A stretch of DNA of 34,620 nt from Candidatus Ligilactobacillus excrementigallinarum. GTDB lineage: Bacteria > Bacillota > Bacilli > Lactobacillales > Lactobacillaceae. The notes under the pieces are model-generated. The model was not told where the DNA came from, did no database searches, and worked only from the letters and a program-made list of their open reading frames with translations. Where the stretch lies: assembly GCA_019114385.1 (NCBI GenBank), contig DXFP01000017.1, forward strand, positions 1 through 34,620, written 5' to 3'. Shown one piece after another: positions 2,413 through 24,492 of the stretch. The first letter of the stretch is position 1; each line of letters starts with the position of its first letter. The translations under genes were made by a program, and so were the position numbers.

Positions 2413-2441
2413 GAGGTTGTGACATCAGTCCAACCTCTATT
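2413..2441. terminator. Hairpin terminator between lipoprotein gene and pepS
   Basis: GAGGTTG (2413-2419) pairs with CAACCTC (2431-2437) and is followed by TATTTTTAT, so it should stop transcription from the lipoprotein gene. It is also the distal end of the repeat element that follows pepS on the minus strand. Confidence 0.75.
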
Positions 2442-2574
2442 TTTATATCTGCATAATCGGGTTCCAAAACAAACAGGCATGTCTGTAAATTCAAAAAACT
2501 CCGAATCAATACTACGTAATTCGTTCGTTTTTTTCCTTACAACATGCCTGTTTTTAATGTTTTGTCACACCTTC
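2413..2574 (-). repeat. 3'-UTR hairpin repeat, copy A (downstream of pepS)
   Basis: Read on the minus strand this 162-bp element starts 5 bases after the pepS stop with GAAGGTGTGACA. It then forms a long hairpin: AAACAGGCATGTTGTAA (2553-2537) pairs with its near-complement at 2488-2471, and an inner CGAAT/ATTCG stem lies inside. A linker beginning GTTTTGGAACCCGATTAT follows, then the terminator hairpin at 2437-2413. It is about 85% alike by eye to copy B and clearly related to copies C, D and E. It fills nearly all of the gap between two convergent genes. Confidence 0.88.
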
Positions 2575-2579
2575 ATTTT

Positions 2580-3815
2580 TTATGCCCAATCACCATTACG
2601 GAACACCGGCACAACCGTTCCATCTTTTTTAATTCCATCAATATTCATATCAGCAGAACCCACCATAAAGTCAACATGAGTCTGACTAAAGTTAATGCCT
2701 TTTGCCTTTAATTCGGCTTCACTCATCTTAGTTCCACCCTTAACATTAAATGGATATGCAGCCCCTAAAGCAAGGTGGTCACTTGCATTTTCATCGAAAA
2801 GAGTATTATAAAAGATAATTCCAGATTGAGAGATTGGAGAAGGATCAGGAACAAGTGAAACTTCACCTAATGATTTAACACCATCATCTGTTTGTAATAA
2901 ATGTTCAAGGACTTCTTGCCCCTTCTTAGCAGTAACATCAACTACTTTACCGTCTTTAAATGTAAATTTCATATCTTCTAAGATATTACCTGCATAACTC
3001 AATGGTTTAGTTGAAGTTACATAACCGTTAATGCGGCGATTATCAGGTGCAGTGAAGCATTCTTCAGTTGGCATATTTGCCATAAAAGTGATGCCAGCTG
3101 CGTTTTTACTGCTGCCGCCTTCCCAGACATGATTTTCTGGTAAACCGATTGTCAAGTCTGTTCTTGGAGAAGTGTAATGTAATGCACTGAATTGCTCTTT
3201 ATTTAACCAGTCTTCTTTAGTATGTAATTTTTGATCATGTTCTTGCCAAGCTTTAATTGGATCTGGTTGATCAATACGAGTGGTTTTGAAAATTTCTTCC
3301 CATAAACGATCAACGGCAGCTTCACCTTTCAAATCAGGGAAAACTTTTTCTGCCCATTCTACACTAGCAGCAGCTACTACTGTCCAGCTTAAATCATTGT
3401 TTTGAGTAGCTTTGCGTACAGGCATTAAAGCTTTCCCGTTGGCAGCTTGATATGCAGCTACTCGTTTTTGATCGATTCCGGCAAATGCACCTGGATCTTC
3501 AGACATTACTGAAATGCGGCAGCAACGGTTTTGAGCGATATATTTGGCTTCTTCTTTAGCAAATTCAGGAATTGTTGTTAGATTTTCAGTTGAAGCATGT
3601 GTCAAAAATTGTTGCTGAGCAAAAGTATCGCTCCATTTGACCATAACTTTGCCGGCACCTGCAGCATAAGCTTCTTCAATAATTAAGTGAGCTAGATGTT
3701 GTTGATCAACGTTGATATACAAAACTACTGTTTGTCCTTTTTGGACATTTACGCCTACTTTGACGATTAATTTTGCATATTTTTTTAATTTTTCTTCGAA
3801 ATTTTTCATAACCAT
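2580..3815 (-). CDS. pepS: M29 family metallo-aminopeptidase (PepS/AmpS type)
   Basis: ATG 3815 is chosen because GGAGG (3828-3824) is eight bases upstream; a TTG at 3821 is too close. The 411-residue product matches the cytoplasmic M29 aminopeptidases of lactic acid bacteria, which release N-terminal residues from peptides using a two-metal centre. Family motifs are present in order: TEECFTAPDNRR (metal-ligand Glu), LGEVSLVPDPSPI (Glu), HLALGAAYPF (His), and HVDFMVGSADMNIDG near the C-terminus (His, Asp). Length is normal (about 410). There is no signal peptide. It stands alone on the minus strand, back to back with the epimerase gene and separated from the lipoprotein gene by repeat copy A. 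A role in peptide nutrition is inferred from the family. Confidence 0.93.
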   Translation of the reverse strand: MVMKNFEEKLKKYAKLIVKVGVNVQKGQTVVLYINVDQQHLAHLIIEEAYAAGAGKVMVKWSDTFAQQQFLTHASTENLTTIPEFAKEEAKYIAQNRCCRISVMSEDPGAFAGIDQKRVAAYQAANGKALMPVRKATQNNDLSWTVVAAASVEWAEKVFPDLKGEAAVDRLWEEIFKTTRIDQPDPIKAWQEHDQKLHTKEDWLNKEQFSALHYTSPRTDLTIGLPENHVWEGGSSKNAAGITFMANMPTEECFTAPDNRRINGYVTSTKPLSYAGNILEDMKFTFKDGKVVDVTAKKGQEVLEHLLQTDDGVKSLGEVSLVPDPSPISQSGIIFYNTLFDENASDHLALGAAYPFNVKGGTKMSEAELKAKGINFSQTHVDFMVGSADMNIDGIKKDGTVVPVFRNGDWA

Positions 3816-3892
3816 ATTCAAAACCTCCGCTGATGTATTAATATAATGATAGCATATAAATATTTTTTCATCATAAATAAGGAGAGGAACAA

Positions 3893-5032
3893 ATGAAAAA
3901 AATCAAGATTATGACGGTGTTTGGTACTCGACCAGAAGCAATCAAGATGGCACCGCTTGTTTTAGAATTAAAAAAACATCCTGAAATTGAAACGATTACT
4001 ACGGTAACTGCACAACACCGTGAAATGTTAGATCAAGTATTGGACATTTTTAAGATTACTCCAGACTATGATTTGAATATTATGCATCGTGGACAAACTT
4101 TGACTGATATTACAGTAGAAGTTTTAAATCAATTAAGAGATGTATTGCAAAAAGAAAAACCAGATATGATTTTGACACATGGTGACACAACTACAACTTT
4201 CGCTGCTAGTTTAGCTGCATTTTATGAAAAAATTGCAATTGGACATGTTGAAGCAGGATTGAGAACTTGGAATAAATATTCTCCATACCCAGAAGAAATG
4301 AATCGTCAAATGACGGATGCACTTTCTGATTTGTATTTTGCGCCAACAGAACAAAGTAAACAAAACTTGTTGAAAGAAAATCACCCTGAAAAGGAAATTT
4401 TTGTTACAGGAAATACAGCAATCGATGCGTTGAAGCAAACTGTTCAGGAAAATTACCATCATGATGTTTTAGATGAAATTAATCCTGAAAATAAAGTTAT
4501 TTTGGTTACAATGCACCGCCGTGAAAATCAAGGCCAACCAATGCATCAAGTTTTCAAAGCAATTCGCAAAGTGGTGGATCAAGAACCAAATGTTGAAGTT
4601 ATTTATCCAGTTCACTTGAGCCCGGCTGTTCAAAAAGCTGCTCACGAAGAATTGGGCGGCGATCCACGGATTCACTTGATTGATCCATTGGATGTGGTTG
4701 ATTTCCATAACTTGGCAGCGAAAAGCGATTTCATCATGACTGATTCTGGTGGTGTTCAAGAAGAAGCTCCAGCATTAGGAAAGCCAGTATTGGTATTACG
4801 AGATACAACAGAACGACCAGAAGGAATTAAGGCTGGAACCTTAAAATTAGTTGGAACTGATCCAAAAAATGTTGAAAAATGGATGAACAAGTTATTACAT
4901 GATCAAGCAATTTATGATGAGATGAGTCATGCACGCAATCCATATGGTGATGGCGAGGCTTCAAGAAGAATTGTTGAAGCCATTAAATACCACTTTGGCT
5001 TACAAGATCATCGTCCAGAGGAATTTAAATAA
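3893..5032 (+). CDS. mnaA: UDP-N-acetylglucosamine 2-epimerase (non-hydrolysing)
   Basis: This 379-residue cytoplasmic enzyme interconverts UDP-GlcNAc and UDP-ManNAc. In Firmicutes it feeds TagA, which builds the GlcNAc-ManNAc linkage unit of wall teichoic acid, and in some strains capsule synthesis. The start follows AAGGAGAGG by a proper gap. Motifs seen: GTRPEAIKMAPL at the N-terminus, HGDTTTTFAASLAAF, HVEAGLRTWNKYSPYPEEMNRQ around the active-site region, MHRRENQG, and DSGGVQEEAPALGKPVLVLRDTTERPEG for UDP binding. Length matches the family. It is monocistronic: pepS is divergent upstream and yfhO convergent downstream. Repeat copy C starts two bases after the stop codon. Confidence 0.95.
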   Translation: MKKIKIMTVFGTRPEAIKMAPLVLELKKHPEIETITTVTAQHREMLDQVLDIFKITPDYDLNIMHRGQTLTDITVEVLNQLRDVLQKEKPDMILTHGDTTTTFAASLAAFYEKIAIGHVEAGLRTWNKYSPYPEEMNRQMTDALSDLYFAPTEQSKQNLLKENHPEKEIFVTGNTAIDALKQTVQENYHHDVLDEINPENKVILVTMHRRENQGQPMHQVFKAIRKVVDQEPNVEVIYPVHLSPAVQKAAHEELGGDPRIHLIDPLDVVDFHNLAAKSDFIMTDSGGVQEEAPALGKPVLVLRDTTERPEGIKAGTLKLVGTDPKNVEKWMNKLLHDQAIYDEMSHARNPYGDGEASRRIVEAIKYHFGLQDHRPEEFK

Positions 5033-5033
5033 A

Positions 5034-5184
5034 AAGGTATTATAAAAGCATTGAAAGAGTATGCTATAAGGAAAGAGCGCACGAATTATGCAATGTTGAT
5101 TCAGAGAGCTTTAAACTTATAGACATGTTCGTTTAAATTATTCAAATATATAATAAATAGAGGTTGTGACATAAGTCCAGCCTC
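5034..5184 (+). repeat. 3'-UTR hairpin repeat, copy C (downstream of mnaA)
   Basis: This is a more diverged copy in plus orientation, beginning two bases after the mnaA stop. It keeps the hairpin arms (GTATGCTATAAGG near 5060 against CTTATAGACATGTTC near 5115), the core CACGAATTATGCAATGTTGATTC, a linker ATTATTCAAATATATAATAAATA, and the terminator hairpin at 5160-5184. The GTAAG/CTTAC pair of other copies is ATAAG/CTTAT here, so pairing is kept. It overlaps copy B, which shares the same terminator hairpin on the opposite strand. Confidence 0.8.
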
Positions 5185-5187
5185 TAT
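5160..5187. terminator. Shared bidirectional terminator between mnaA and yfhO
   Basis: GAGGTTG (5160-5166) pairs with CAGCCTC (5178-5184) allowing one G-T pair. It is flanked by AATAAATA on the left and TATTTCTATA on the right, so it can act for both converging genes, with weak U tracts. It lies at the exact centre of the two facing repeat copies. Confidence 0.68.
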
Positions 5188-5324
5188 TTCTATATTTGAA
5201 TAATCGGGTTTCAAAACAAACAGGCATGCCTGTAAATTCAAAAACCTCTGAGTCAATACTACGTAATTCATTCGGTTTTTCCTTACAACATGCCTGCCTG
5301 TTTTTGGTGTTTTGTCACACCTTC
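5160..5324 (-). repeat. 3'-UTR hairpin repeat, copy B (downstream of yfhO)
   Basis: Read on the minus strand it starts six bases after the yfhO stop with GAAGGTGTGACAAAACACC. It continues with a hairpin whose arms are GCATGTTGTAAGG and TTTACAGGCATGCC, enclosing AAAAACC/GGTTTTT, then a linker GTTTTGAAACCCGATTAT, and ends in the terminator at 5184-5160. One arm carries an extra CAGG (GCCTGCCTG on the plus strand), a small duplication. It is the closest relative of copy A. Confidence 0.88.
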
Positions 5325-5330
5325 TTATTT

Positions 5331-8165
5331 TTAACGTTTAATTTTAATTAAGCAGCAGATTGCACTTAAAAGCGTTAAGCATAACCCACATAGCGTAATC
5401 TTGAAGCCTAAAGTTAATCCGGGTGTATGATATTCGAAGCGAATTTGATGTTTGCCGGGATTAAGCTTTAACCCAAGGAATGCTTGATTCGTCCGAATAA
5501 TATTTTGCTTTTGCCCATCAACTGTTGCTGTCCAGCCTTTAGAATATGGAATTGAAGATGTTAAAATCCCTGAACGGTCAGTATTAATTTGTCCGCTAAA
5601 TCCTGAAGCAGTATAATGAGCGTTCTTTAATGCATGACGTTGAATAGTGTCAACTTGTTGCTGATAAGCCTTTCCAAGTGGTTCTGCAACGACTTTTAAC
5701 TTAAATGAATAGGTTCCTAATTCTTTTAAGTTTAGTTGAATTTGTTGCGGAATTTGACGTGGAAAATATCCTAAATTCAGCGTTCCATTTTTAACTTCCT
5801 TGAAGAAAGAAAGAATATATGGTTTGGGTTGTTTTAATTGCTCTTTTCCAAGACTAGTTTGAACTTCAATTGTAAAACCGGTATTGGGGCGTCCGTTTAC
5901 AATATTGTTGCGCCAATACTTATAACTGTTGAGGGCTTGGTCTTGCGTTAAAATTCCACTGGTTAACTGGTAGTCAGCAGCAGATTGTTGTAATTTAACT
6001 TGTTGTATCAATTTCAAAGGCTGATATTTAATATTTTGAAATTCAAGATGCAATTCACAATTCTTTAACGCTTTTTTCTCAACTGTGGATAATTTAGTTT
6101 GATCAATTACAATTTGGTAGTTCTCATTTGGATCAAGCTGCTCAATTTTATCTGGATTAATCTGATTACCGTTACTTGAAATCAATTTAAAAGGTAATGA
6201 GATAACCTGATTTTTAACTGAAGCTTTAGGTAAATTAGTGTGGGCATTAACTAAAACGCCATCTGCTAAGGCTCGTTCTTTTTGTGTTGGTCCGAATTTA
6301 TAATACTGTTTTGGATTGAACACCTTATCTTGCCAGTAAACAAGTGGGAAATTATCCTTACTGCGATACCGCAACAATTCATTGTTATCATAAGTGTTTT
6401 GCCAATCAGCTTTATCCAAGTCAAATGAAAATGGAATTTTGTCGGCATTTGGTCGTTTACTTTGAACGAATAAGTATTTTACGCCAAAGAAATTATTGAT
6501 TACACTGCGGTCATTAAATTGTCGAATCGGAAAGTTAGCCTCAAACTGACTATTTTGGAGCTCATTTGCAAATTTTCCTAAATATTGATTTTGCAATGAG
6601 TAGTATGATGAAATATCATTTACTTTCGGATTTAAATTATTGTAATAGCGATAGTCATTTCCAAAAACTTGATTTTGACTAATTGTAGATGTCCGGTATG
6701 TATTTTGATTATTTAAATTAGACGTTAAATTTCCATACTGTGCTGTCACTAATTTTTCATAGCTTCTATTAGGTAACATTTCTTCGGCATAGCCGCCATT
6801 ATATGGAGCTTCAAAATAAACCGCATTTAAAATTACGTTTAATAAAGTAATTCCGAAAATCATTGTGCGGGAATGCTTTACGCGAAATTTCACAATGAAG
6901 AAAATTCCGAATAATGTAATCAATAAGAAGATGACAGGTACAAATAATTTTTCGTTGTTCTGGAAGAAGTAATCTAAAGCTAAGTAACCAAGATAAATTC
7001 CAACTGCAATTCCCAAAATTTTTAAGGTGCGTGTACTTAGTTGCGGTAAATTTTCAACTAAAAGAGCACAACTTAACGCTACTGGCAAACACAACATTAA
7101 TGTCCAACGGTTGGAAGGAGCCATGAGACCATTAAAGAAGGCAGCGCATGCAGGAACTAGCAACATAATGAATCCTAAGATAAAACTTGAATTGATTATT
7201 GGATATTTTTTAAAGTGAATCAAGGTATAGCCAATTCCAAAGAAAGCTAAACTTGCAAATCCAAGCGCGCTCCAAAAGTAAAAGTCGCGATTCCCACCAT
7301 TAATTAATTGACCAGGTAAATTCAAATAGTAATATGCAGGATAAAAATGTAACCCGTTAGCAAATTTGCTGCCCGCCCGTGTTGAATTTTGGACGGCAAT
7401 GACTTCAGGTAACAATAAGATTGCAGCATTTAGAATTGCTAAAAGGGTACTCCAACTTAATTTGAGAAATAATTTCCCATAATTTCGCTTGGTATGGCGA
7501 CTCCAAAATAGGCGTAAACCAAGGTAAATTATGGCACCGATTCCTAGGATATAAGCAAAATAAAAATTATTAACTAACATCCAAGTGAAGGTCAGCATTA
7601 GCGGCCAACTGGATTTTTCCTGAATGACACGTTCTAAATTCACAATTAGAATTGGAAAAATAATAAAGGGAAGGGTGAAAAAAGGTTGCGAAACATTTGA
7701 ATACAGTAAGAAGGCATTAAATAGGTATATCAGTGAGCCAGTTAAAATCGAAATCTGTTTTAATTTAAAATGCTTGGCACACCAGCAAAAAGCCAATCCA
7801 GCACAATACAAACGTAAAATGATCATTAGTTGGTAAGCGAAAATGATTTTACTTGCGGGAAAAAGCAAACTCAGATATGCAAAAATATCCCCCAATAAAT
7901 AGTAGGAATAAATTTGAAATTTGTCATTGCCTAATCCAAGATGGTATGACCAAGTGTGCAGTGTAGGATGATGTAAAAATTGTAAAACATCACTGCGAAA
8001 ACTTTCTAATAATGGTAAATGTTGATTAGCACCATCGATATACCAGATTAGCGAGTGCCCAGTTACCCAAAAAGTGCCATATACAAATAACGCAACAATA
8101 ATAAAAGTTGCGGTGTATTTTAAATAAAGATGTTTTGCTTGTTTTTTTTCAGTTGTAAAATACAC
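5331..8165 (-). CDS. yfhO: YfhO family membrane protein (GT-C-like, wall polymer glycosylation)
   Basis: The 944-residue product starts at GTG 8165, with GGGAGG eight bases upstream. The N-terminal half holds about a dozen hydrophobic helices. A large soluble domain follows (about residues 440-900), and one last helix precedes a short KIKR tail. Length and plan fit YfhO, a family with a GT-C-like fold. YfhO is proposed to transfer a sugar from undecaprenyl phosphate, loaded by CsbB, to lipoteichoic acid or another wall polymer outside the membrane. The early GTFWVTGHSLIWYIDGANQHLP segment has acidic residues in the first outer loop, as expected for GT-C proteins. It is the last gene of the flavodoxin-csbB-yfhO operon, 79 bases after csbB. 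The acceptor polymer is not known from sequence. Confidence 0.88.
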   Translation of the reverse strand: MYFTTEKKQAKHLYLKYTATFIIVALFVYGTFWVTGHSLIWYIDGANQHLPLLESFRSDVLQFLHHPTLHTWSYHLGLGNDKFQIYSYYLLGDIFAYLSLLFPASKIIFAYQLMIILRLYCAGLAFCWCAKHFKLKQISILTGSLIYLFNAFLLYSNVSQPFFTLPFIIFPILIVNLERVIQEKSSWPLMLTFTWMLVNNFYFAYILGIGAIIYLGLRLFWSRHTKRNYGKLFLKLSWSTLLAILNAAILLLPEVIAVQNSTRAGSKFANGLHFYPAYYYLNLPGQLINGGNRDFYFWSALGFASLAFFGIGYTLIHFKKYPIINSSFILGFIMLLVPACAAFFNGLMAPSNRWTLMLCLPVALSCALLVENLPQLSTRTLKILGIAVGIYLGYLALDYFFQNNEKLFVPVIFLLITLFGIFFIVKFRVKHSRTMIFGITLLNVILNAVYFEAPYNGGYAEEMLPNRSYEKLVTAQYGNLTSNLNNQNTYRTSTISQNQVFGNDYRYYNNLNPKVNDISSYYSLQNQYLGKFANELQNSQFEANFPIRQFNDRSVINNFFGVKYLFVQSKRPNADKIPFSFDLDKADWQNTYDNNELLRYRSKDNFPLVYWQDKVFNPKQYYKFGPTQKERALADGVLVNAHTNLPKASVKNQVISLPFKLISSNGNQINPDKIEQLDPNENYQIVIDQTKLSTVEKKALKNCELHLEFQNIKYQPLKLIQQVKLQQSAADYQLTSGILTQDQALNSYKYWRNNIVNGRPNTGFTIEVQTSLGKEQLKQPKPYILSFFKEVKNGTLNLGYFPRQIPQQIQLNLKELGTYSFKLKVVAEPLGKAYQQQVDTIQRHALKNAHYTASGFSGQINTDRSGILTSSIPYSKGWTATVDGQKQNIIRTNQAFLGLKLNPGKHQIRFEYHTPGLTLGFKITLCGLCLTLLSAICCLIKIKR

Positions 8166-8244
8166 AAAAAAAGCCTCCCTTAGTTTCCCATTCCATTTTA
8201 CTCTAAAACAGATAAGAACGAAAACCTAAGAGAGGACAAAAGTT

Positions 8245-9177
8245 TTATTTCTTTTCTTTTAATATATATATTGGACGTTTTTTAACTTCCATGAAAATCT
8301 TACCAATATATTTACCAACAATTCCTAAACAAAGTAATTGAATTCCGCCGATAAACAAGAAGATGCAGACCATGGATGCCCAGCCGAATGCAGAACCACC
8401 ATAAAGTAATTTGCGGATAATCACAAAGATAATTCCAATGACTGATCCAATTGATGATAATAATCCGACATATGAAGCGATGTTCAATGGAGTTTGAGAG
8501 AAGGAAACAATTCCGTCAATTGAGTATTTCAACAAACTCCAGAAATTCCAACTAGTTTTACCAGCAACACGTTCTTGATTAGTATATTCAAGATACTTGG
8601 TTTTGAAACCAACCCAACTGAAGATTCCCTTTGAGAAACGATTGTATTCGCTCATTGATAAAATTGCATCTACCATTTGCCGCGTCATTAAGCGATAATC
8701 TCGGGCACCATCTACAATTTCGGTATCTGAAATTGTATTGATTAATTTGTAGAAAAGATGAGCAAAGAATGAACGAATTGGAGGTTCGCCTTTACGATTT
8801 ACACGACGAGTACCTACACAATCATATTCGCCAGATTCTAAATAACCAAGCATTTTTGGCAATAATTCTGGAGGATCTTGCAAATCAACGTCCATTACTG
8901 CAACATAGTCACCAGTTGCCTGTTGTAAACCGCAGTATAAACCGGCTTCTTTGCCAAAATTTCGTGAAAATGAAGCATAGTGAACATGTGATGGATCTTT
9001 TTGCTGTAATTTGCGTAATTCAGCTAAAGTATTATCAGTTGAACCATCATCAATAAACCAATATTCTAACTCAATCCCAGGCAATTGTGGAGCAACTTTT
9101 TCCACAGCATCATAAAACAATGGAATGGATTCTTCTTCACAATAACAAGGAACGATAATTGATAATTTCTTTGTCAT
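8245..9177 (-). CDS. csbB: GT2 polyprenyl-phosphate glycosyltransferase (CsbB/GtrB-like)
   Basis: The 310-residue protein has an N-terminal GT-A domain with LSIIVPCYCEEESIP, FIDDGSTDNT, the metal-binding DVDLQDPPEL near residues 96-105, and the core SRNFGKEAGLYCGL. Two C-terminal membrane helices follow (about 225-250 and 265-290), then a basic tail. This plan is that of CsbB/GtrB enzymes, which put glucose or GlcNAc from a nucleotide sugar onto undecaprenyl phosphate at the inner membrane face. Its AGAGGAG ribosome binding site overlaps the stop of the flavodoxin gene four bases upstream, so the two are translationally close. Pairing with YfhO supports a wall-polymer glycosylation route. A GtcA-type flippase, usual in such three-part systems, is not in the window. 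The sugar cannot be read from the sequence. Confidence 0.92.
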   Translation of the reverse strand: MTKKLSIIVPCYCEEESIPLFYDAVEKVAPQLPGIELEYWFIDDGSTDNTLAELRKLQQKDPSHVHYASFSRNFGKEAGLYCGLQQATGDYVAVMDVDLQDPPELLPKMLGYLESGEYDCVGTRRVNRKGEPPIRSFFAHLFYKLINTISDTEIVDGARDYRLMTRQMVDAILSMSEYNRFSKGIFSWVGFKTKYLEYTNQERVAGKTSWNFWSLLKYSIDGIVSFSQTPLNIASYVGLLSSIGSVIGIIFVIIRKLLYGGSAFGWASMVCIFLFIGGIQLLCLGIVGKYIGKIFMEVKKRPIYILKEKK

Positions 9178-9181
9178 TTGA

Positions 9182-9634
9182 TTACTCCTCTAATTTAGCA
9201 ACTAATTCATCTGCAAATTCATCTAAAGTTGCCAAATCTTCATCAGTATCAGGTGAAAGATTGATTTTGACATCTTTTGCACCTTGAGTAGCACCGGCAG
9301 CCTTTAGTACGCGACTGAATTCATCGACTGCCGTACAGTAATATTCACCGTAGAAAGTATCGCCAGAACCAGCAACCCCATAAATTTTTCCGCTTAAATC
9401 AATTTCTTGTAAATCTTCGAAAAAGTCCATACCTTCATCAGGTAAATTACCTTCATCATAAGTATAAGGACATACTACACAAATGTCAGCTTCTTCAAAA
9501 TCACTGACATCAGCCTGTGAAATTTCATCAACTTGAACATCTAAACCGTGATCTTCAAGATTTTCTGCAATAATGTCTGCAATGTCTTCATTATTGCCGG
9601 TAATCGTTGCAAAAACAACTTCAGCTTTTGCCAC
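9182..9634 (-). CDS. Short-chain flavodoxin
   Basis: GTG 9634 is taken as the start because AAAGGAG lies eight bases before it; a TTG at 9640 is less likely. The 150-residue, strongly acidic protein has the FMN phosphate loop TITGNNEDIA after the first beta strand, CPYTYDEGNLPDEG in the 50s loop region and GSGDTFYGEYYCTAVDEF in the 90s loop, all typical of flavodoxins. It should be a cytoplasmic one-electron carrier; its partner is not known. It is the first gene of the minus-strand operon with csbB and yfhO, an odd company for a redox protein. Transcription probably starts from an extended -10 element at 9669-9677. Confidence 0.92.
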   Translation of the reverse strand: MAKAEVVFATITGNNEDIADIIAENLEDHGLDVQVDEISQADVSDFEEADICVVCPYTYDEGNLPDEGMDFFEDLQEIDLSGKIYGVAGSGDTFYGEYYCTAVDEFSRVLKAAGATQGAKDVKINLSPDTDEDLATLDEFADELVAKLEE

Positions 9635-9668
9635 AATCAACGCTCCTTTCCGTTAAACATTTGCTTTA

Positions 9669-9677
9669 ATTATATCA
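9669..9677 (-). promoter_or_regulatory. Extended -10 promoter for the flavodoxin-csbB-yfhO operon
   Basis: On the minus strand TGATATAAT (TG, one base, TATAAT) lies about 35 bases before the flavodoxin start. No clear -35 box is seen, which fits an extended -10 promoter. Confidence 0.55.
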
Positions 9678-9738
9678 AATTTCATTGAAAGATAGTATAG
9701 AATGCTAACTGAATTTAACGAATATCAAGATTTTGGGG

Positions 9739-9744
9739 TATAAT
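9739..9744 (+). promoter_or_regulatory. -10 box of the map promoter
   Basis: TATAAT follows GGGG 37 bases before the map start codon. A -35 box is not convincing (TTTAAC/TTAACG at a spacing of 18-19). Confidence 0.5.
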
Positions 9745-9780
9745 AAAACCGATTAGTGTAAAAAGACGGGAGGAAATCAA

Positions 9781-10575
9781 ATGATTACATTGAAATCACC
9801 GCGTGAAATTAAAGAAATGGCGGTTTCAGGTGCCATTTTAGCTGGCATGCATATTGGTTTGCGCGATATTATCAAACCAGGTGTTTCAAGCTGGGAAGTT
9901 GAAAAATTTGCACGTAAATATTTCAAAGAACATGATGCTATTCCAGAACAAATTGGCTTTGAAGGATATAAATATGCAACTTGTGTAAGTGTGAATGACG
10001 AAATTTGCCACGCATTTCCACGGAAAGATTTAATTTTTAAAGAAGGCGACTTAGTTAAGGTCGATACTGTTGTAAATTATCATGGGGCAATGAGCGACTC
10101 TTGCTGGAGTTACGTTGTCGGCAAGCCTTCACCAGAAGTAGAGCGGTTAATGGAAGTTACTAAAAAAGCCCTTTATCTTGGAATTGACCAAGCTCAAGTC
10201 GGCAATCGCTTAGGTGATATTGGTTACGCTATCCAACATTACACTGAAGATGAAAATGGATATGGTGATGTGCGTGAATTCGTTGGTCATGGAATTGGAC
10301 CTACAATGCATGAATCGCCTAATGTACCGCACTATGGCGAAAAAAGCAAGGGAATTCGGTTGCGTGAAGGAATGACAATTACCATTGAACCAATGATTAA
10401 TACCGGTACATGGCAAGCAGTTATGGATGATCCAAATGGTTGGACTGCTCGAACAGCGGATGGCGGATTATCATGCCAATATGAACACACAATTGTCATT
10501 ACTAAAGATGGCCCAAAGATTTTAACATCTCAAGATCCTTCAATGGATGAAAAATATTTATACAAATTTAAATAA
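9781..10575 (+). CDS. map: Type I methionine aminopeptidase
   Basis: This 264-residue cytoplasmic enzyme removes the initiator methionine from new proteins. All five metal ligands are visible: Asp95 (VKVDTVV), Asp106 (MSDSCWSY), His170 (FVGHGIG), Glu203 (TIEPM) and Glu235 (QYEHTIV), together with His77 near the substrate pocket. The start follows GGGAGG. The domain begins at residue 1 with no N-terminal zinc-finger extension, as in other Firmicutes. It is transcribed alone: the flavodoxin operon is divergent and a strong terminator lies at 10616. Confidence 0.96.
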   Translation: MITLKSPREIKEMAVSGAILAGMHIGLRDIIKPGVSSWEVEKFARKYFKEHDAIPEQIGFEGYKYATCVSVNDEICHAFPRKDLIFKEGDLVKVDTVVNYHGAMSDSCWSYVVGKPSPEVERLMEVTKKALYLGIDQAQVGNRLGDIGYAIQHYTEDENGYGDVREFVGHGIGPTMHESPNVPHYGEKSKGIRLREGMTITIEPMINTGTWQAVMDDPNGWTARTADGGLSCQYEHTIVITKDGPKILTSQDPSMDEKYLYKFK

Positions 10576-10615
10576 GACTAGTTTTATTTTTATTTTGAAT
10601 TATACCAATTAAGTT

Positions 10616-10652
10616 AGAATCCCATAATTTGTGGAAATTATGGGATTCTTGT
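10616..10652 (+). terminator. Terminator of map
   Basis: A perfect 15-bp stem (10616-10630 with 10635-10649) with a GTGG loop is followed by TGTTTCTTT. The U tract is interrupted, but the stem is strong. Confidence 0.8.
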
Positions 10653-10729
10653 TTCTTTACCACTGTAAACAAGCTTACGGATTTTAACGATTGAAAATAA
10701 GGATTTCCTTATCAAAATTTAGAATTTAC

Positions 10730-10757
10730 TTGTCAAACGTTGATTTACTGGTATAAT
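10730..10757 (+). promoter_or_regulatory. Promoter of galU
   Basis: TTGTCA (10730-10735) and TATAAT (10752-10757) are 16 bases apart, and TGG before the -10 makes it also an extended -10. It lies 65 bases before the galU start codon. Confidence 0.75.
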
Positions 10758-10822
10758 TAACCTAGATATTTAGTTATCTTTTTTAGAGAATACATACCAA
10801 TAAGTAGATAAGGGGTATAACT

Positions 10823-11695
10823 ATGAAAGTTAGAAAAGCTGTTATTCCTGCAGCTGGTTTAGGTACTCGTTTCTTACCAGCTACAAAAGCTTTAGCTAAG
10901 GAAATGTTCCCAATTATTGATAAGCCAACAATTCAATACATTGTTGAAGAAGCTCGCAAGTCAGGAATTGAAGATATTTTAGTTGTTACTGGAAAGGGCA
11001 AACGTCCAATTGAAGATCACTTTGACTCAGTTCCAGAACTTGAACAAAATCTTACTGCTAAAGGTAAAACTGGTTTATTGAAGTTAGTTCAACAAACAAC
11101 TGATATTAACTTATACTTCATTCGTCAATCACATCCACGTGGTTTAGGTGATGCTGTATTAATGGCTAAGGACTTTGTTGGTAACGAACCATTTGTTGTT
11201 ATGCTTGGTGACGATATCATGGAAGACAAGGTTCCTTTGACAAAACAATTGATCGATCGTTATGAAGAAACACATGCTTCAACATTAGCAGTTATGAAAG
11301 TTCCGCATGAAGAAGTAAATAAATATGGGGTTATTGATCCTGCTACAGAAACAAAGCCAGGTTTGTTTGACGTAAATCAATTCGTTGAAAAGCCAGATGT
11401 TGACAAAGCCCCTTCTGATTTAGCAATCATTGGTCGTTACTTGTTAACACCTGAAATTTTTGACATGTTGGAAACTCAAAAGCCAGGTGCTGGTAATGAA
11501 ATTCAATTGACAGATGCAATTGATCGTTTGAACCAAATTCAACGTGTATTTGCACATGAATTCAAGGGTGAACGTTTCGATGTCGGTTACAAGTTCGGCT
11601 ACTTGAAGACTTCAATTCAATTTGGCTTGAAGCATCCAGAAGTTAGCGATGACTTGAAGGCTTACATCAAGGAACTAGCAAGCAAGCTTAAATAA
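10823..11695 (+). CDS. galU: UTP-glucose-1-phosphate uridylyltransferase
   Basis: The 290-residue enzyme makes UDP-glucose from UTP and glucose-1-phosphate. It has the N-terminal nucleotide loop [19 protein letters not shown], the [12 protein letters not shown] segment, MLGDDIM for metal and sugar binding, VEKPD and [10 protein letters not shown], all diagnostic for GalU. Length is normal. The start follows AAGGGG at seven bases. In this window UDP-glucose would be used by LafA to glucosylate diacylglycerol and perhaps by the CsbB-like enzyme. It is monocistronic, with its own promoter and repeat copy D in its 3' region. Confidence 0.96.
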
Positions 11696-11707
11696 TTAAA
11701 TATTTAT

Positions 11708-11878
11708 GGGAAAATAAAACATCTTATGAAAAAAAGCGGGTATGCCGTAAGGGAAAACCAGATTAATCACAAAAGATTGGTTTGGCAAATTTCAAACTTA
11801 TAGGTATACCCGTTTGTTTTGGAACGATGTTGAGAATATAAAATAAAGAGGTTGTCACATCAGTCCAACCTCTTTATT
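11708..11878 (+). repeat. 3'-UTR hairpin repeat, copy D, with terminator (downstream of galU)
   Basis: It starts about 13 bases after the galU stop; the left edge is uncertain. Arm AGCGGGTATGCCGTAAG (from 11735) pairs with CTTATAGGTATACCCG (from 11798). The inner stem differs in sequence from other copies but still pairs (AAACCA..ATC with GATTGGTTT). The linker GTTTTGGAACGATG and the terminator hairpin 11842-11878 (GAGGTTG with CAACCTC, then TTTATTTTAT) are as in copies A-C. It is the main content of the 328-bp gap before yihY. Confidence 0.85.
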
Positions 11879-11880
11879 TT
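11842..11880 (+). terminator. Terminator of galU (end of repeat copy D)
   Basis: AATAAAGAGGTTG (11842-11854) pairs with CAACCTCTTTATT (11866-11878) and is followed by T residues. The stem is a perfect 13 bp, so it could act in both directions. Confidence 0.8.
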
Positions 11881-12023
11881 ATGAATAGGCAATTTAGCAA
11901 AATAATTTTGTAAAGAGAATTTAAAATAATAACTTGTAAATTAGTGGTTAAATAGTCTATGTCTAATAAATTAGAGAGTTAAATGTTAATCGATTACTCT
12001 CTTATGCTAAAGGAATTAGTGAA
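11881..12023 (+). other. AT-rich gap upstream of yihY with a 5'-leader hairpin
   Basis: No gene is seen here. AGAGAGT (11973-11979) pairs with ACTCTCT (11996-12002) just before the yihY ribosome binding site AAAGGA (12009-12014). No T run follows, so it is not a terminator. I see no convincing -35/-10 pair, although TTGTAA occurs at about 11932. Confidence 0.4.
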
Positions 12024-12941
12024 ATGAAAAAGCTCGGATGCAAATGTAAGGCCTTTTTTAAAGCGGTCTTAAGCAAAACAATCCAAGGCGATATTTTTAA
12101 TACAGCAATTATTGTTACATATTTTGTATTGTTAACGATTGTACCGATTGTGATTTTTATTGGAAATATTTTGCCAATGATGCATATTAATGCAGCAAAG
12201 ATTATGCCATATTTGAATGTGGCATTGCCGGAACCAATTTATAATTTTTTGGGACCGATTGTACGAAAATTCTTAACTCATGGATCTGGAGGAGTAGCTT
12301 CATTCTCAATGCTGTTTACATTGTGGGCAGGTAGCCGTGCCATTAATGCTTTAAAACGCTCTATGAATCAAATTTTTGGAGTGGGAGACTCGCAAGATTT
12401 TATTGCAACTACTATTTTATCCATATTAATTACGATTAGTTTTGGAGCATTACTGGTTACAGTCTTTGTGATTTACAGTTTTGGACAAATTGTTTTGGAA
12501 TACTTAACTCCAATTTTCCAATTACCATTGAGTTATTTGGAAATTTTCCTGAAATATCGATGGTCGGTTACATTTATTATCATTTTTATTATTTTATGTT
12601 TATTGTATATCGTCTTGCCAAATGTTAAGGTCCACTGGTTATCAGTTTGGCCAGGGGCATTAATTGCCTCATTAGGATGGATGGCATTGACTGGGATTTT
12701 TACGATTTATGTTAAATATTTTGCATATCGTGTTTTAAGTTATGGTACATTAGGAACATTCTTAGTGTTGCTTTTCTGGATGAATTATTCCAATTTGATA
12801 ATTCTCTTTGGCGCGATTGTGAATGCCTTTATTGAGGAGCAACGTTACGGTACGGTTGTACCTAAGGAGCATAAATTTGGTAAAAAAGTACGGCAAAAAG
12901 TACATGAAAAACATATTGAAAAGATTAATAATGCAAAATAA
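12024..12941 (+). CDS. YihY/BrkB family inner-membrane protein
   Basis: The 305-residue protein has about six membrane helices: near residues 26-48, 90-110, 132-160, 180-205, 210-235 and 240-270. Family landmarks include the glycine-rich FSMLFTLWAGSRAINALKRSMNQIF and the last helices YGTLGTFLVLLFWMNYSNLIILFGAIVNAFIEE. The family was once labelled ribonuclease BN, but that link was mistaken and its function is still unclear; a transport role has been suggested. The C-terminal tail is rich in Lys and His and cytoplasmic. The gene is isolated between repeat copies D and E. Confidence 0.9.
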   Translation: MKKLGCKCKAFFKAVLSKTIQGDIFNTAIIVTYFVLLTIVPIVIFIGNILPMMHINAAKIMPYLNVALPEPIYNFLGPIVRKFLTHGSGGVASFSMLFTLWAGSRAINALKRSMNQIFGVGDSQDFIATTILSILITISFGALLVTVFVIYSFGQIVLEYLTPIFQLPLSYLEIFLKYRWSVTFIIIFIILCLLYIVLPNVKVHWLSVWPGALIASLGWMALTGIFTIYVKYFAYRVLSYGTLGTFLVLLFWMNYSNLIILFGAIVNAFIEEQRYGTVVPKEHKFGKKVRQKVHEKHIEKINNAK

Positions 12942-12947
12942 TATAAA

Positions 12948-13054
12948 GTGTGATAAAACACAAAAAACGGGTATGTTGTAAGGGAAGAACGCTCGAATTA
13001 CTAAGTATTGATTCGAAGTTTTTTTGAACTTACAAACATGCCCGTTTGTTTTTA
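12948..13054 (+). repeat. 3'-UTR hairpin repeat, copy E, no terminator module (downstream of yihY)
   Basis: It starts six bases after the yihY stop with GTGTGATAAAACAC. Arm AACGGGTATGTTGTAAG (from 12966) pairs with CTTACAAACATGCCCG (from 13029). The core CTCGAATTACTAAGTATTGATTCGAAG contains a TCGAAT/ATTCGA stem. The linker and GAGGTTG hairpin of other copies are missing, and the recX stop follows at once. The long stem plus TTTGTTTTTATT may itself end transcription. Confidence 0.83.
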
Positions 13055-17076: not shown

Positions 17077-17098
17077 ATACCGGTTTATAACTCGAAAT

Positions 17099-17133
17099 GA
17101 GGCTGTGACAGAAGTGTTGCAGCTTCTTTTTTT
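17099..17133 (+). terminator. Terminator of the UPF0374 gene
   Basis: GAGGCTGTGACA pairs with TGTTGCAGCTTC (one G-T, one mismatch) and is followed by seven or more T. The stem start GAGGCTGTGACA is the same family as the terminator part of the 3'-UTR repeats. Confidence 0.85.
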
Positions 17134-17175
17134 GAAAATAACCGTTTTACAAATTACACTTTTAGGAGGAAAAAG

Positions 17176-19433: not shown

Positions 19434-19452
19434 ATTAAAAAGCTGAGAATAG

Positions 19453-19491
19453 ATAAGAGGCTGTAACAAAGGTGTTGCAGCCCCTTATTTT
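19453..19491 (+). terminator. Terminator of gpsA
   Basis: ATAAGAGGCTG (19453-19463) pairs with CAGCCCCTTAT (19478-19488, one G-T) and is followed by TTTTG. Its stem begins GAGGCTGTAACA, close to the terminator at 17099. Confidence 0.83.
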
Positions 19492-19577
19492 GCAATCATT
19501 AAGATTAGGCTACTCTTGAAAGAAAGATAAGAATTTTGTAGTATTATTTTTAGAACAAATCATGATTAGGTGAAATA

Positions 19578-22505: not shown

Positions 22506-23873
22506 TTAAAATCGTCCTTGTTCTTGGGCAACTTTATGTTCAATATCTAAATCAAGGTATTGACGAATTGTCCATCCACGACCATCTAGGTTAAACCATT
22601 GCATTTCACGGCCGCCTTGACGTTCCGTAATCGTTACAATTGAGCCATCTTCAATTGAATCAACCGGATTACCAAATGGTCGATCATATAATGTCAGTTT
22701 CTTTCCAGGTACAAAGTCAACAATGGCTTGCACATTCAAATTGATTGAGAATTGGTATCCTTCAGTGGAAGCAACTGAATATTGTGGAAGAGAGTCCACA
22801 AATTGAACTTTGTCATAATCTTCTTGAATCCAGAGATTACCGCCTAAGCAGTGCCATCTTTCACCATTTGTTAAATGAACTGATTCAAAGACTTGCCATA
22901 CAGTTCCTTCTGCTAAAGTTACGTAAGTATCATTTCCTTTAGGTGCATCGTAACCTGGTTGAGAAACTTTCATTTTAAGGTACTTAACATTAAAATCGAC
23001 TTCTTTCCAAGTAGCATCGCGATAGTAATATGTAACTACTTGTTGTTTATCAGTGAAGTTTCCCTTTACATTTCCTTCAGCCCGTAAAAGATTATATCCG
23101 ATAAAATCGGGTGGAGTTAATGAATATTTTTCTTCAACTTTTCCAGAAACAAAGCGAGGTTTACCTAACATATGTAAATCATCAATATCTTGACTGAAGA
23201 GCCAAATATTAGCCCCACTTTGTCGACGATAGGTAAGAGTAATTGATCCATATGGTTCAACGAAAACTGATGTAAATCCGTTAATGTTAATTAAATCATA
23301 GTGATCGAATTCTTTAAATTTAAAATTAATGGCTTCACCACGTTTTCCAGAAATAATTTGCGGTGAACTTAAACTATTATGATTTTCATCTTGGTAAATA
23401 ATAATGATTGTTGAATCTTGATGAGTTGAAGCTTTCTTCAATTCCTGTTTAACTGAAGGTGATTGTTCAAAATGTTCTTCAGGAGTCAACGGATGTTTTT
23501 CAGAAGAAATGTCATTCTCGTTTTCAGACTTAACTTCAGATTTTTCGCTTGTATCTCTATCAGCTACAGGTTGATCTAAAGTCGTTTCTGCTTCAGTTGA
23601 CACTGCAGGTTTTTCATCATTATTTTCAGATACTGACTGTTTTTCAGTTGCATTAGTTTCAGTTTCATCTTGATTGGATGACTTAAAGGATGCATGTTGC
23701 TTATTTTCAGTTGCAGTTTCTGTTTTAGTAGAATCGACTAAGTTTTTTGAATCTGATGTTACTTGTGCTTGAGTAGTATCAACTGATCGTTCAAAATTGT
23801 GACGATGCATCCGTTTCCGGTTGGCTCGCCGATTATTAAATGAACGAATTTTTTTCATAAACTTAAATGCCAT
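22506..23873 (-). CDS. MucBP/SH3-domain protein without recognisable export signal
   Basis: The 455-residue protein starts with a very basic segment (residues 1-28) and then a long Ser/Thr/Glu-rich, probably disordered stretch (about 30-150). Two MucBP-like modules follow (about 155-217 and 223-286; motif TIIIIYQDENHN...ITLTYRRQ and VVTYYYRD). The C-terminal part looks like SH3-type domains (about 296-356 and 376-442, ending WFNLDGRGWTIRQYL). Such domains usually bind mucin or wall glycans outside the cell. Yet no hydrophobic signal peptide, membrane helix or LPxTG motif is seen. GGAGGTG gives a clear start, and no upstream in-frame start would add a signal. It is probably monocistronic. I do not recognise a named family. 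Confidence 0.8.
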   Translation of the reverse strand: MAFKFMKKIRSFNNRRANRKRMHRHNFERSVDTTQAQVTSDSKNLVDSTKTETATENKQHASFKSSNQDETETNATEKQSVSENNDEKPAVSTEAETTLDQPVADRDTSEKSEVKSENENDISSEKHPLTPEEHFEQSPSVKQELKKASTHQDSTIIIIYQDENHNSLSSPQIISGKRGEAINFKFKEFDHYDLININGFTSVFVEPYGSITLTYRRQSGANIWLFSQDIDDLHMLGKPRFVSGKVEEKYSLTPPDFIGYNLLRAEGNVKGNFTDKQQVVTYYYRDATWKEVDFNVKYLKMKVSQPGYDAPKGNDTYVTLAEGTVWQVFESVHLTNGERWHCLGGNLWIQEDYDKVQFVDSLPQYSVASTEGYQFSINLNVQAIVDFVPGKKLTLYDRPFGNPVDSIEDGSIVTITERQGGREMQWFNLDGRGWTIRQYLDLDIEHKVAQEQGRF

Positions 23874-24391: not shown

Positions 24392-24453
24392 CCGTAATAA
24401 TGTTGATTTCAGCTAGTCAGAAGATAATTTATTAATAAAAATCTAACGGAATA

Positions 24454-24492
24454 AAAAAACGAGATTGAACATAAATTCCAATCTCGTTTTTT
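24454..24492. terminator. Terminator of clpE
   Basis: AAAAAACGAGATTG (24454-24467) pairs with CAATCTCGTTTTTT (24479-24492), a perfect 14-bp stem with A and T runs on its sides. It lies 22 bases after the clpE stop. Confidence 0.9.

Follow-up and report, generated by a model that had tools for sequence, protein, structure and literature searches.

The stretch of DNA analysed here, referred to as the window, comprises 34,620 nucleotides (nt) of contig DXFP01000017.1 from Candidatus Ligilactobacillus excrementigallinarum (assembly GCA_019114385.1, forward strand). It contains five copies, designated A to E, of a non-coding repeat of about 165 nt, each following a gene. The gene names pepS, yfhO, mnaA, galU and yihY are taken from an earlier note made from the sequence alone, with no protein identification behind them here. 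That note described five structured copies directly 3' of stop codons, and this is confirmed: all five lie at the places and on the strands it gave, and the gap between stop codon and element is 1 to 12 bases in five of five. The repeat begins with a leader, GAAGGTGTGACAAAAC, continues through a long hairpin and a 27-nt linker, GTTTTGGAACCCGATTATGCGGATATA, and ends in a terminator hairpin. The main hairpin is represented by a covariance model, R1, constructed from 27 sequences. The features are listed below.

2413 to 2574, minus strand: copy A, full element after pepS, stop side at 2580
2559 to 2574, minus strand: leader of copy A, GAAGGTGTGACAAAAC, the 5' end of the element, an imperfect inverted repeat of the 3' end, conserved across species
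2465 to 2553, minus strand: main hairpin of copy A, R1 match at 110.4 bits
2444 to 2470, minus strand: conserved linker of copy A, one mismatch to the 27-mer, overlapping the last bases of the hairpin match
2413 to 2437, no strand assigned: terminator hairpin of copy A, between pepS and a convergent gene ending at 2406
5160 to 5324, minus strand: copy B, full element after yfhO, stop side at 5331
5309 to 5324, minus strand: leader of copy B
5212 to 5299, minus strand: main hairpin of copy B, 100 bits
5160 to 5184, no strand assigned: terminator hairpin common to copies B and C, which stand tail to tail in the yfhO/mnaA gap
5034 to 5184, plus strand: copy C, divergent element after mnaA, stop side at 5032
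5053 to 5140, plus strand: main hairpin of copy C, 72.3 bits
about 11708 to 11872, plus strand: copy D, divergent element after galU, stop side at 11695
11734 to 11821, plus strand: main hairpin of copy D, 75.8 bits
11848 to 11872, plus strand: terminator hairpin of copy D
12948 to 13054, plus strand: copy E after yihY, with a T-rich run after the main hairpin and no separate terminator hairpin, stop side at 12941
12965 to 13053, plus strand: main hairpin of copy E, 97 bits

Copies A and B are 88-89% identical; C, D and E, judged by eye, are more divergent. The absence of a terminator hairpin from copy E had been noticed in the earlier note. Folding compared with shuffled sequences gives z values of -10.4, -7.4, -5.1, -9.4 and -8.7 for copies A to E. 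The note's remark that this is not a named RNA family agrees with an Rfam search of the window, which returned no family at gathering score and, between 2300 and 13200, weak matches far under the cut-off. Hairpins at 17094-17137, 19452-19495 and 24448-24492 resemble the terminator of the element with the main hairpin absent, so terminator sequence of this type exists on its own in the genome.

The note had proposed a covariance model for searching this genome and its relatives, and that search finds a high-copy family in both. In the 1.47 Mb genome to which the window belongs (G000), a blastn search with copy A, in which 40 of 138 candidates were scored, gives at least 46 matches. R1 returns 141 rows at E <= 0.001, which represent at least 107 distinct places once 25 rows that were antisense twins of listed copies had been left out by hand and nine more merged by script; the figure is a lower bound, as 150 of 1373 first-look candidates were scored. 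Across 60 genomes, R1 finds matches in seven including its own, all from one genus. One of these, G005, has a single weak match, leaving six genomes treated as element-bearing. The five relatives among them have 124 matches in all: 19 in G001 (Candidatus L. faecavium), 7 in G002, 37 in G003 (L. aviarius DSM 20655), 13 in G010 and 48 in G018 (L. aviarius UMNLAv11). The 27-nt linker, allowing up to three mismatches, occurs 49 times in G000, 30 in G003, 39 in G018, 18 in G001 and 5 in G010, against 0 in the control, and is thus present in 5 of 26 genomes of the genus. Of 301 genomes sampled from the family, three have it: G000, G010 and G075, the last from another genus. Its copy there is a single exact one (G075:C102:6507-6533), reflecting either contamination or transfer. 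The identity of yfhO to that of the window is 62-63% in G001, G003, G018 and G010 and 53% in G002; it is 71% in G004 and G025, which have no R1 match. A plasmid, phage or viral source was considered and set aside: a plasmid search with copy A, phage and plasmid searches with one copy from G003, and a search of viral contigs with an exact 21-nt piece of the linker gave no match.

Relatives carry the same succession of leader, hairpin, linker and terminator. G000 and the L. aviarius group have almost the same leader and linker; their hairpin arms are different, CAGGCATGTTGTAAG versus CGAGCGTGGTGGAAG, with the partners altered to match. In an alignment of 32 sequences, 97.4% of cells are paired, and in 12 of 25 pairs both partners have changed, against 6.8 in shuffles. 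Covariation scores 0.277 versus 0.163 in shuffles, none of 500 scoring as high, and a slid control reaches at most 0.080. Related sequences can beat shuffles even without structure, but here the slid control and the rewriting of the arms speak against kinship alone as the source of the signal. Many G-U pairs occur on the sense strand. Either RNA or single-stranded DNA could be the molecule that folds; structure in the latter would yield an identical covariation signal. The terminator tail folds at or below -8 kcal/mol in 57 of 64 cases in G000 and 30 of 31 in the L. aviarius contigs, and a T-run pattern follows it in 47 of 64 and 21 of 31, respectively. The 12-nt ends of the element, GAAGGTGTGACA and GAGGTTGTGACA, match at 10 of 12 positions as a possible imperfect terminal inverted repeat, although the 3' end doubles as half of a terminator stem. 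Five tail-to-tail pairs occur in G000 (C8:31005/31160, C8:16552/16710, C8:38042/38203, C62:3382/3534 and, in the window, 5053/5212), each in a convergent gap and with hairpins 64-76 bases apart, as though the two copies used one terminator.

Placement was examined relative to open reading frames called by script, with no protein evidence. In G000 a sense gene lies upstream of the element at 97 of 107 places, with a median of 29 bases from stop codon to hairpin start and 10-50 bases in 78 of the 97. Sixty places are convergent gaps, 33 same-strand gaps with the element in sense, 8 same-strand gaps with the element antisense and 2 apparently divergent gaps; the other 4 have a sense gene upstream and no downstream neighbour on the sequence. 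At the 57 places scoring 77 bits or more, sense outnumbers antisense 23:1 in same-strand gaps. The relatives were sampled at 39 loci, the best-scoring of the 124 matches, some of them orthologous sites in two genomes and therefore not independent: 15 are convergent, 14 same-strand sense, 10 same-strand antisense and none divergent, with a missing neighbour counted as antisense (L075) and six loci without an assigned strand left out (one in G005, three in G002, two in G010). Orientation differs between the high-scoring G000 copies and these loci (Fisher p 0.004). A second sample, overlapping the first, comes from long stretches of contig in G003 and G018, where 28 of 31 linker matches could be placed. 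Eleven are convergent, 17 same-strand (6 sense and 11 antisense, one of the latter probably mis-called) and none divergent. Divergent gaps make up 18,179 of the 69,294 intergenic bases (26%) in these stretches, yet hold 0 of the 28 elements (2e-4 under uniform placement). A called stop lies within 20 bases of 25 of the 28, and three are more than 90 bases away, among them G018_C16 82535, where genes are mis-called. Place is the rule and orientation is not. An antisense copy presents its terminator first to the gene it follows, so that the transcript would not hold the hairpin; the position after stop codons is accounted for by the terminator being the slot. A preference for one replication strand was also considered, but counts against GC skew, 22:9 in the relatives (p 0.03) and 26:23 in G000 (49 of the 57 high-scoring places), are not convincing.

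The two L. aviarius genomes, about 94% identical, allow occupied and unoccupied forms of one slot to be compared. Collinearity between contigs G018_C16 and G003_C21 extends for about 180 kb, with most long blocks at 93-96% identity. Fourteen sites were compared, 13 on these contigs plus pepS on C17/C20. Presence of the element differs at nine, is shared in the same orientation at four and is shared but inverted at one. At all nine differing sites the slot of the other allele is filled, as judged by eye, by an ordinary hairpin terminator. These nine full/empty pairs show no target-site duplication to the eye; the hairpin already present is either replaced or remains downstream, and is not split. 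In one of the pairs, pepS in G018, there is an insertion sequence and the hairpin is shortened. At G018_C16 75867 the empty allele, GAGGCCATGATGAATATCATAGTCTCTTTTT, is homologous in G003, G001 and G010, and the element is present in G018 only; because three element-free genomes share the simple terminator, the element was gained in G018. At 22765 G003 has the whole element, and G018 and G010 have a linker-like remnant with a locus-specific terminator. At 97913 G010 retains leader and linker with the hairpin deleted. Opposite orientations occupy the same place at 134631 (G018 versus G003) and 70434 (G018 versus G001). Site 91879 is full in G018 and G001 (L072) and empty in G003 and G010. The yfhO/mnaA gap, which holds copies B and C in the window, has one short plain terminator in each of G001, G003, G004, G010, G018 and G025. 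Four orthologous element pairs were found between 20 copies in G003 and 27 in G018, both sets incomplete, and vertical inheritance was rejected. Two of the four pairs differ in hairpin subtype, which suggests gene conversion among copies. At G003_C21 3625 and the orthologous place in G018 and G010 (L237) stand three different terminators, one with an element; plain terminators, too, turn over.

The element is exchanged at the terminator slot in either orientation while its structure and linker are conserved. High copy number, conserved leader and linker, covarying arms, stop-side position and exchange with terminators together lead us to conclude that this is probably a mobile, non-autonomous repeat, about 165 nt long, that occupies the intrinsic-terminator slots of genes and brings a terminator with it. 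We place it among small interspersed mobile repeats, not as a miniature inverted-repeat transposable element (MITE). The earlier note had argued that one fixed orientation and distance speak against random insertion of a mobile element; in the relatives either orientation is used, and full and empty slots turn over. Among the observations that it said would favour a MITE-like element, orientation that is not fixed was found in the relatives, and target duplications were not seen by eye. In the proposed mechanism the sense strand would fold, and a factor would recognise the element through leader and linker. Entry would swap out the resident hairpin, which lies between A-rich and T-rich flanks, or would join the element upstream of the resident terminator. 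The element's own terminator would keep insertion harmless, and in convergent gaps two copies could share one. Gene conversion among copies is the suggested source of differing subtypes at shared sites. Any effect on mRNA 3' ends, such as shielding by the hairpin from 3'-to-5' decay, would be secondary.

Several observations weigh against this interpretation. A weaker measure of covariation, the number of further pair types, is 27 versus 23.8 in shuffles, 10 of 500 being as high. Random orientation does not account for the sense bias in G000. The only firmly polarised gain, at 75867, lies 93 bases from the called upstream stop and is thus a terminator slot by sequence, not stop-adjacent by gene call. 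The pattern at 91879 needs recombination or parallel change. A locus-specific terminator is kept at 82535, 97913 and 22765, so what moves may be no more than leader, hairpin and linker. Finally, the searches described below found no autonomous partner or mobilising enzyme.

The first alternative is that of the earlier note, a cis-acting RNA of the 3' untranslated region (UTR) whose hairpin and terminator set mRNA stability or 3'-end formation or bind a regulator, and which spread because it is useful. Strong covariation with compensatory helix changes, G-U pairs on the sense strand and a terminator tail that folds well in both groups all agree with it, as do the G000 counts (sense at 97 of 107 places, 33:8 in same-strand gaps, 23:1 among high-scoring copies). 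The relatives, however, show no preferred orientation (14:10 and 6:11), and many positions are unshared at about 94% genome identity, orthologous places managing with a plain terminator. We therefore regard this explanation as unlikely overall, although the sense bias in G000 leaves room for a selected role in mRNA 3' ends in that species. What stands of the note is a structured repeat after stops, absent from Rfam and mostly in sense in G000; its "always sense" holds for the five copies of the window and fails as a general rule.

A classical MITE, dependent on the DDE transposase encoded by an insertion sequence whose ends match its own, would likewise be short, non-coding, numerous and prone to turnover, and the possible imperfect terminal inverted repeats would fit. 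The nine full/empty pairs are against it, their target hairpins being replaced or left downstream with no duplication in view, so a textbook MITE is not shown either. No insertion sequence with the element's ends was met in the stretches inspected, though no search aimed at one was made. We consider this origin improbable. An autonomous copy was sought in 17 stretches covering 160 bases before and 63 after the linker, mostly at linkers without a strong hairpin match; these proved to be full copies of other hairpin subtypes, hairpin-deleted copies and copies interrupted by insertion sequences, in which reading frames were not searched. Single-strand mobility by a Y1 transposase, of the IS200/IS605 or REP/RAYT type, would suit a structured strand with hairpins near its ends, sense-strand G-U pairs and the lack of visible target duplication. 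Y1 sequence (PF01797) occurs in G000 as a single fragment, where a contig ends, and in G001 in broken form. It is unmatched in G002, G003, G010 and G018, four of the six element-bearing genomes, and matched in G005, G006, G013 and G023, three of which have no element; strand versus GC skew is weak in the relatives and flat in G000. Y1 was rejected as the mobiliser, and mobility of this type is very improbable. The last alternative is a retroelement-like mechanism in which a reverse transcriptase like that of group IIC introns would target terminator hairpins. In its favour, such introns recognise these hairpins (PMC3898094) and RVT_1 (PF00078) has one match over the cut-off in G001, but with no RVT_1 match in G000, G002, G003, G010 or G018, five of the six element-bearing genomes, and no Rfam intron match in the window, a reverse transcriptase was rejected as mobiliser and the explanation can scarcely be entertained.

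Returning to a mobile repeat that takes terminator slots, a bolder and doubtful extension is a module that targets the intrinsic terminator itself. It would exchange with resident hairpins in either orientation and without target duplication, through a factor of undescribed kind that recognises the folded sense strand, leader and linker, so that terminators would replace one another like interchangeable components.

The known system that comes closest in location and terminator character appears, from the portions of the reports drawn on here, to be SPRITE of Streptococcus pneumoniae, a rho-independent terminator-like repeat with an 18-bp duplex and a U-rich tract, present in 30 copies in the genome studied (PMC3049150). 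Its copies are concentrated near the 3' ends of genes and in convergent gaps, and it was proposed to be mobile and co-opted as a terminator; its authors could find no comparable empty site (PMC3049150). Both are small, interspersed, terminator-like repeats near gene 3' ends, a likeness of place and terminator character drawn without sequence comparison. Unlike SPRITE as portrayed in those portions, the present repeat has a leader, a long covarying hairpin, a conserved linker, at least 107 places and readable empty alleles. BOX and RUP, also of S. pneumoniae, have terminal repeats and target duplications (PMC3049150), and bcr1-bcr3 of the Bacillus cereus group are often parts of UTRs (PMC3049150, PMC3446304). 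As far as these accounts go, all are high-copy, non-coding, folded, MITE-like repeats, as is ours; unlike BOX and RUP, it takes the place of the terminator with no duplication visible by eye. REP, BIME and REPIN sequences, which go with RAYT, are extragenic palindromes hypothesised to act in terminating transcription and in stabilising mRNA (PMC3733652). The present repeat is likewise a high-copy extragenic palindrome, but several times longer, and Y1 transposase is unmatched in 4 of 6 element-bearing genomes. Group IIC introns, for which the terminator hairpin is a recognition determinant (PMC3898094), share the apparent target; they differ in that the window has no intron RNA match and reverse transcriptase is unmatched in 5 of 6 element-bearing genomes. 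In a review of bacterial MITEs, terminator-like sequence is attributed to SPRITE and is also mentioned as possible for MITEs (PMC10969869), and a survey of stem-loop families includes L. johnsonii among its genomes (PMC2267715). No description of the present repeat was found in open-licence literature, searched mostly by titles and the beginnings of abstracts.

The suspicion that small repeats near the ends of bacterial genes are mobile and act as terminators is an old one. Here full, empty, partial and inverted alleles of one slot can be compared in genomes about 94% identical, and because they are readable side by side, the entry and exit of such repeats at terminators becomes testable. If the interpretation is right, many genes of these gut bacteria owe their 3' ends to a mobile element.

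Insertion sequences may in turn use the repeat as a landing site. In two genomes, copies are interrupted or abutted by DNA resembling insertion sequences, IS3-like as judged by eye, at G018_C17 (about 5459-6996), L249 (about 2036), L250 (about 217), L248 (about 2019) and downstream in L075.

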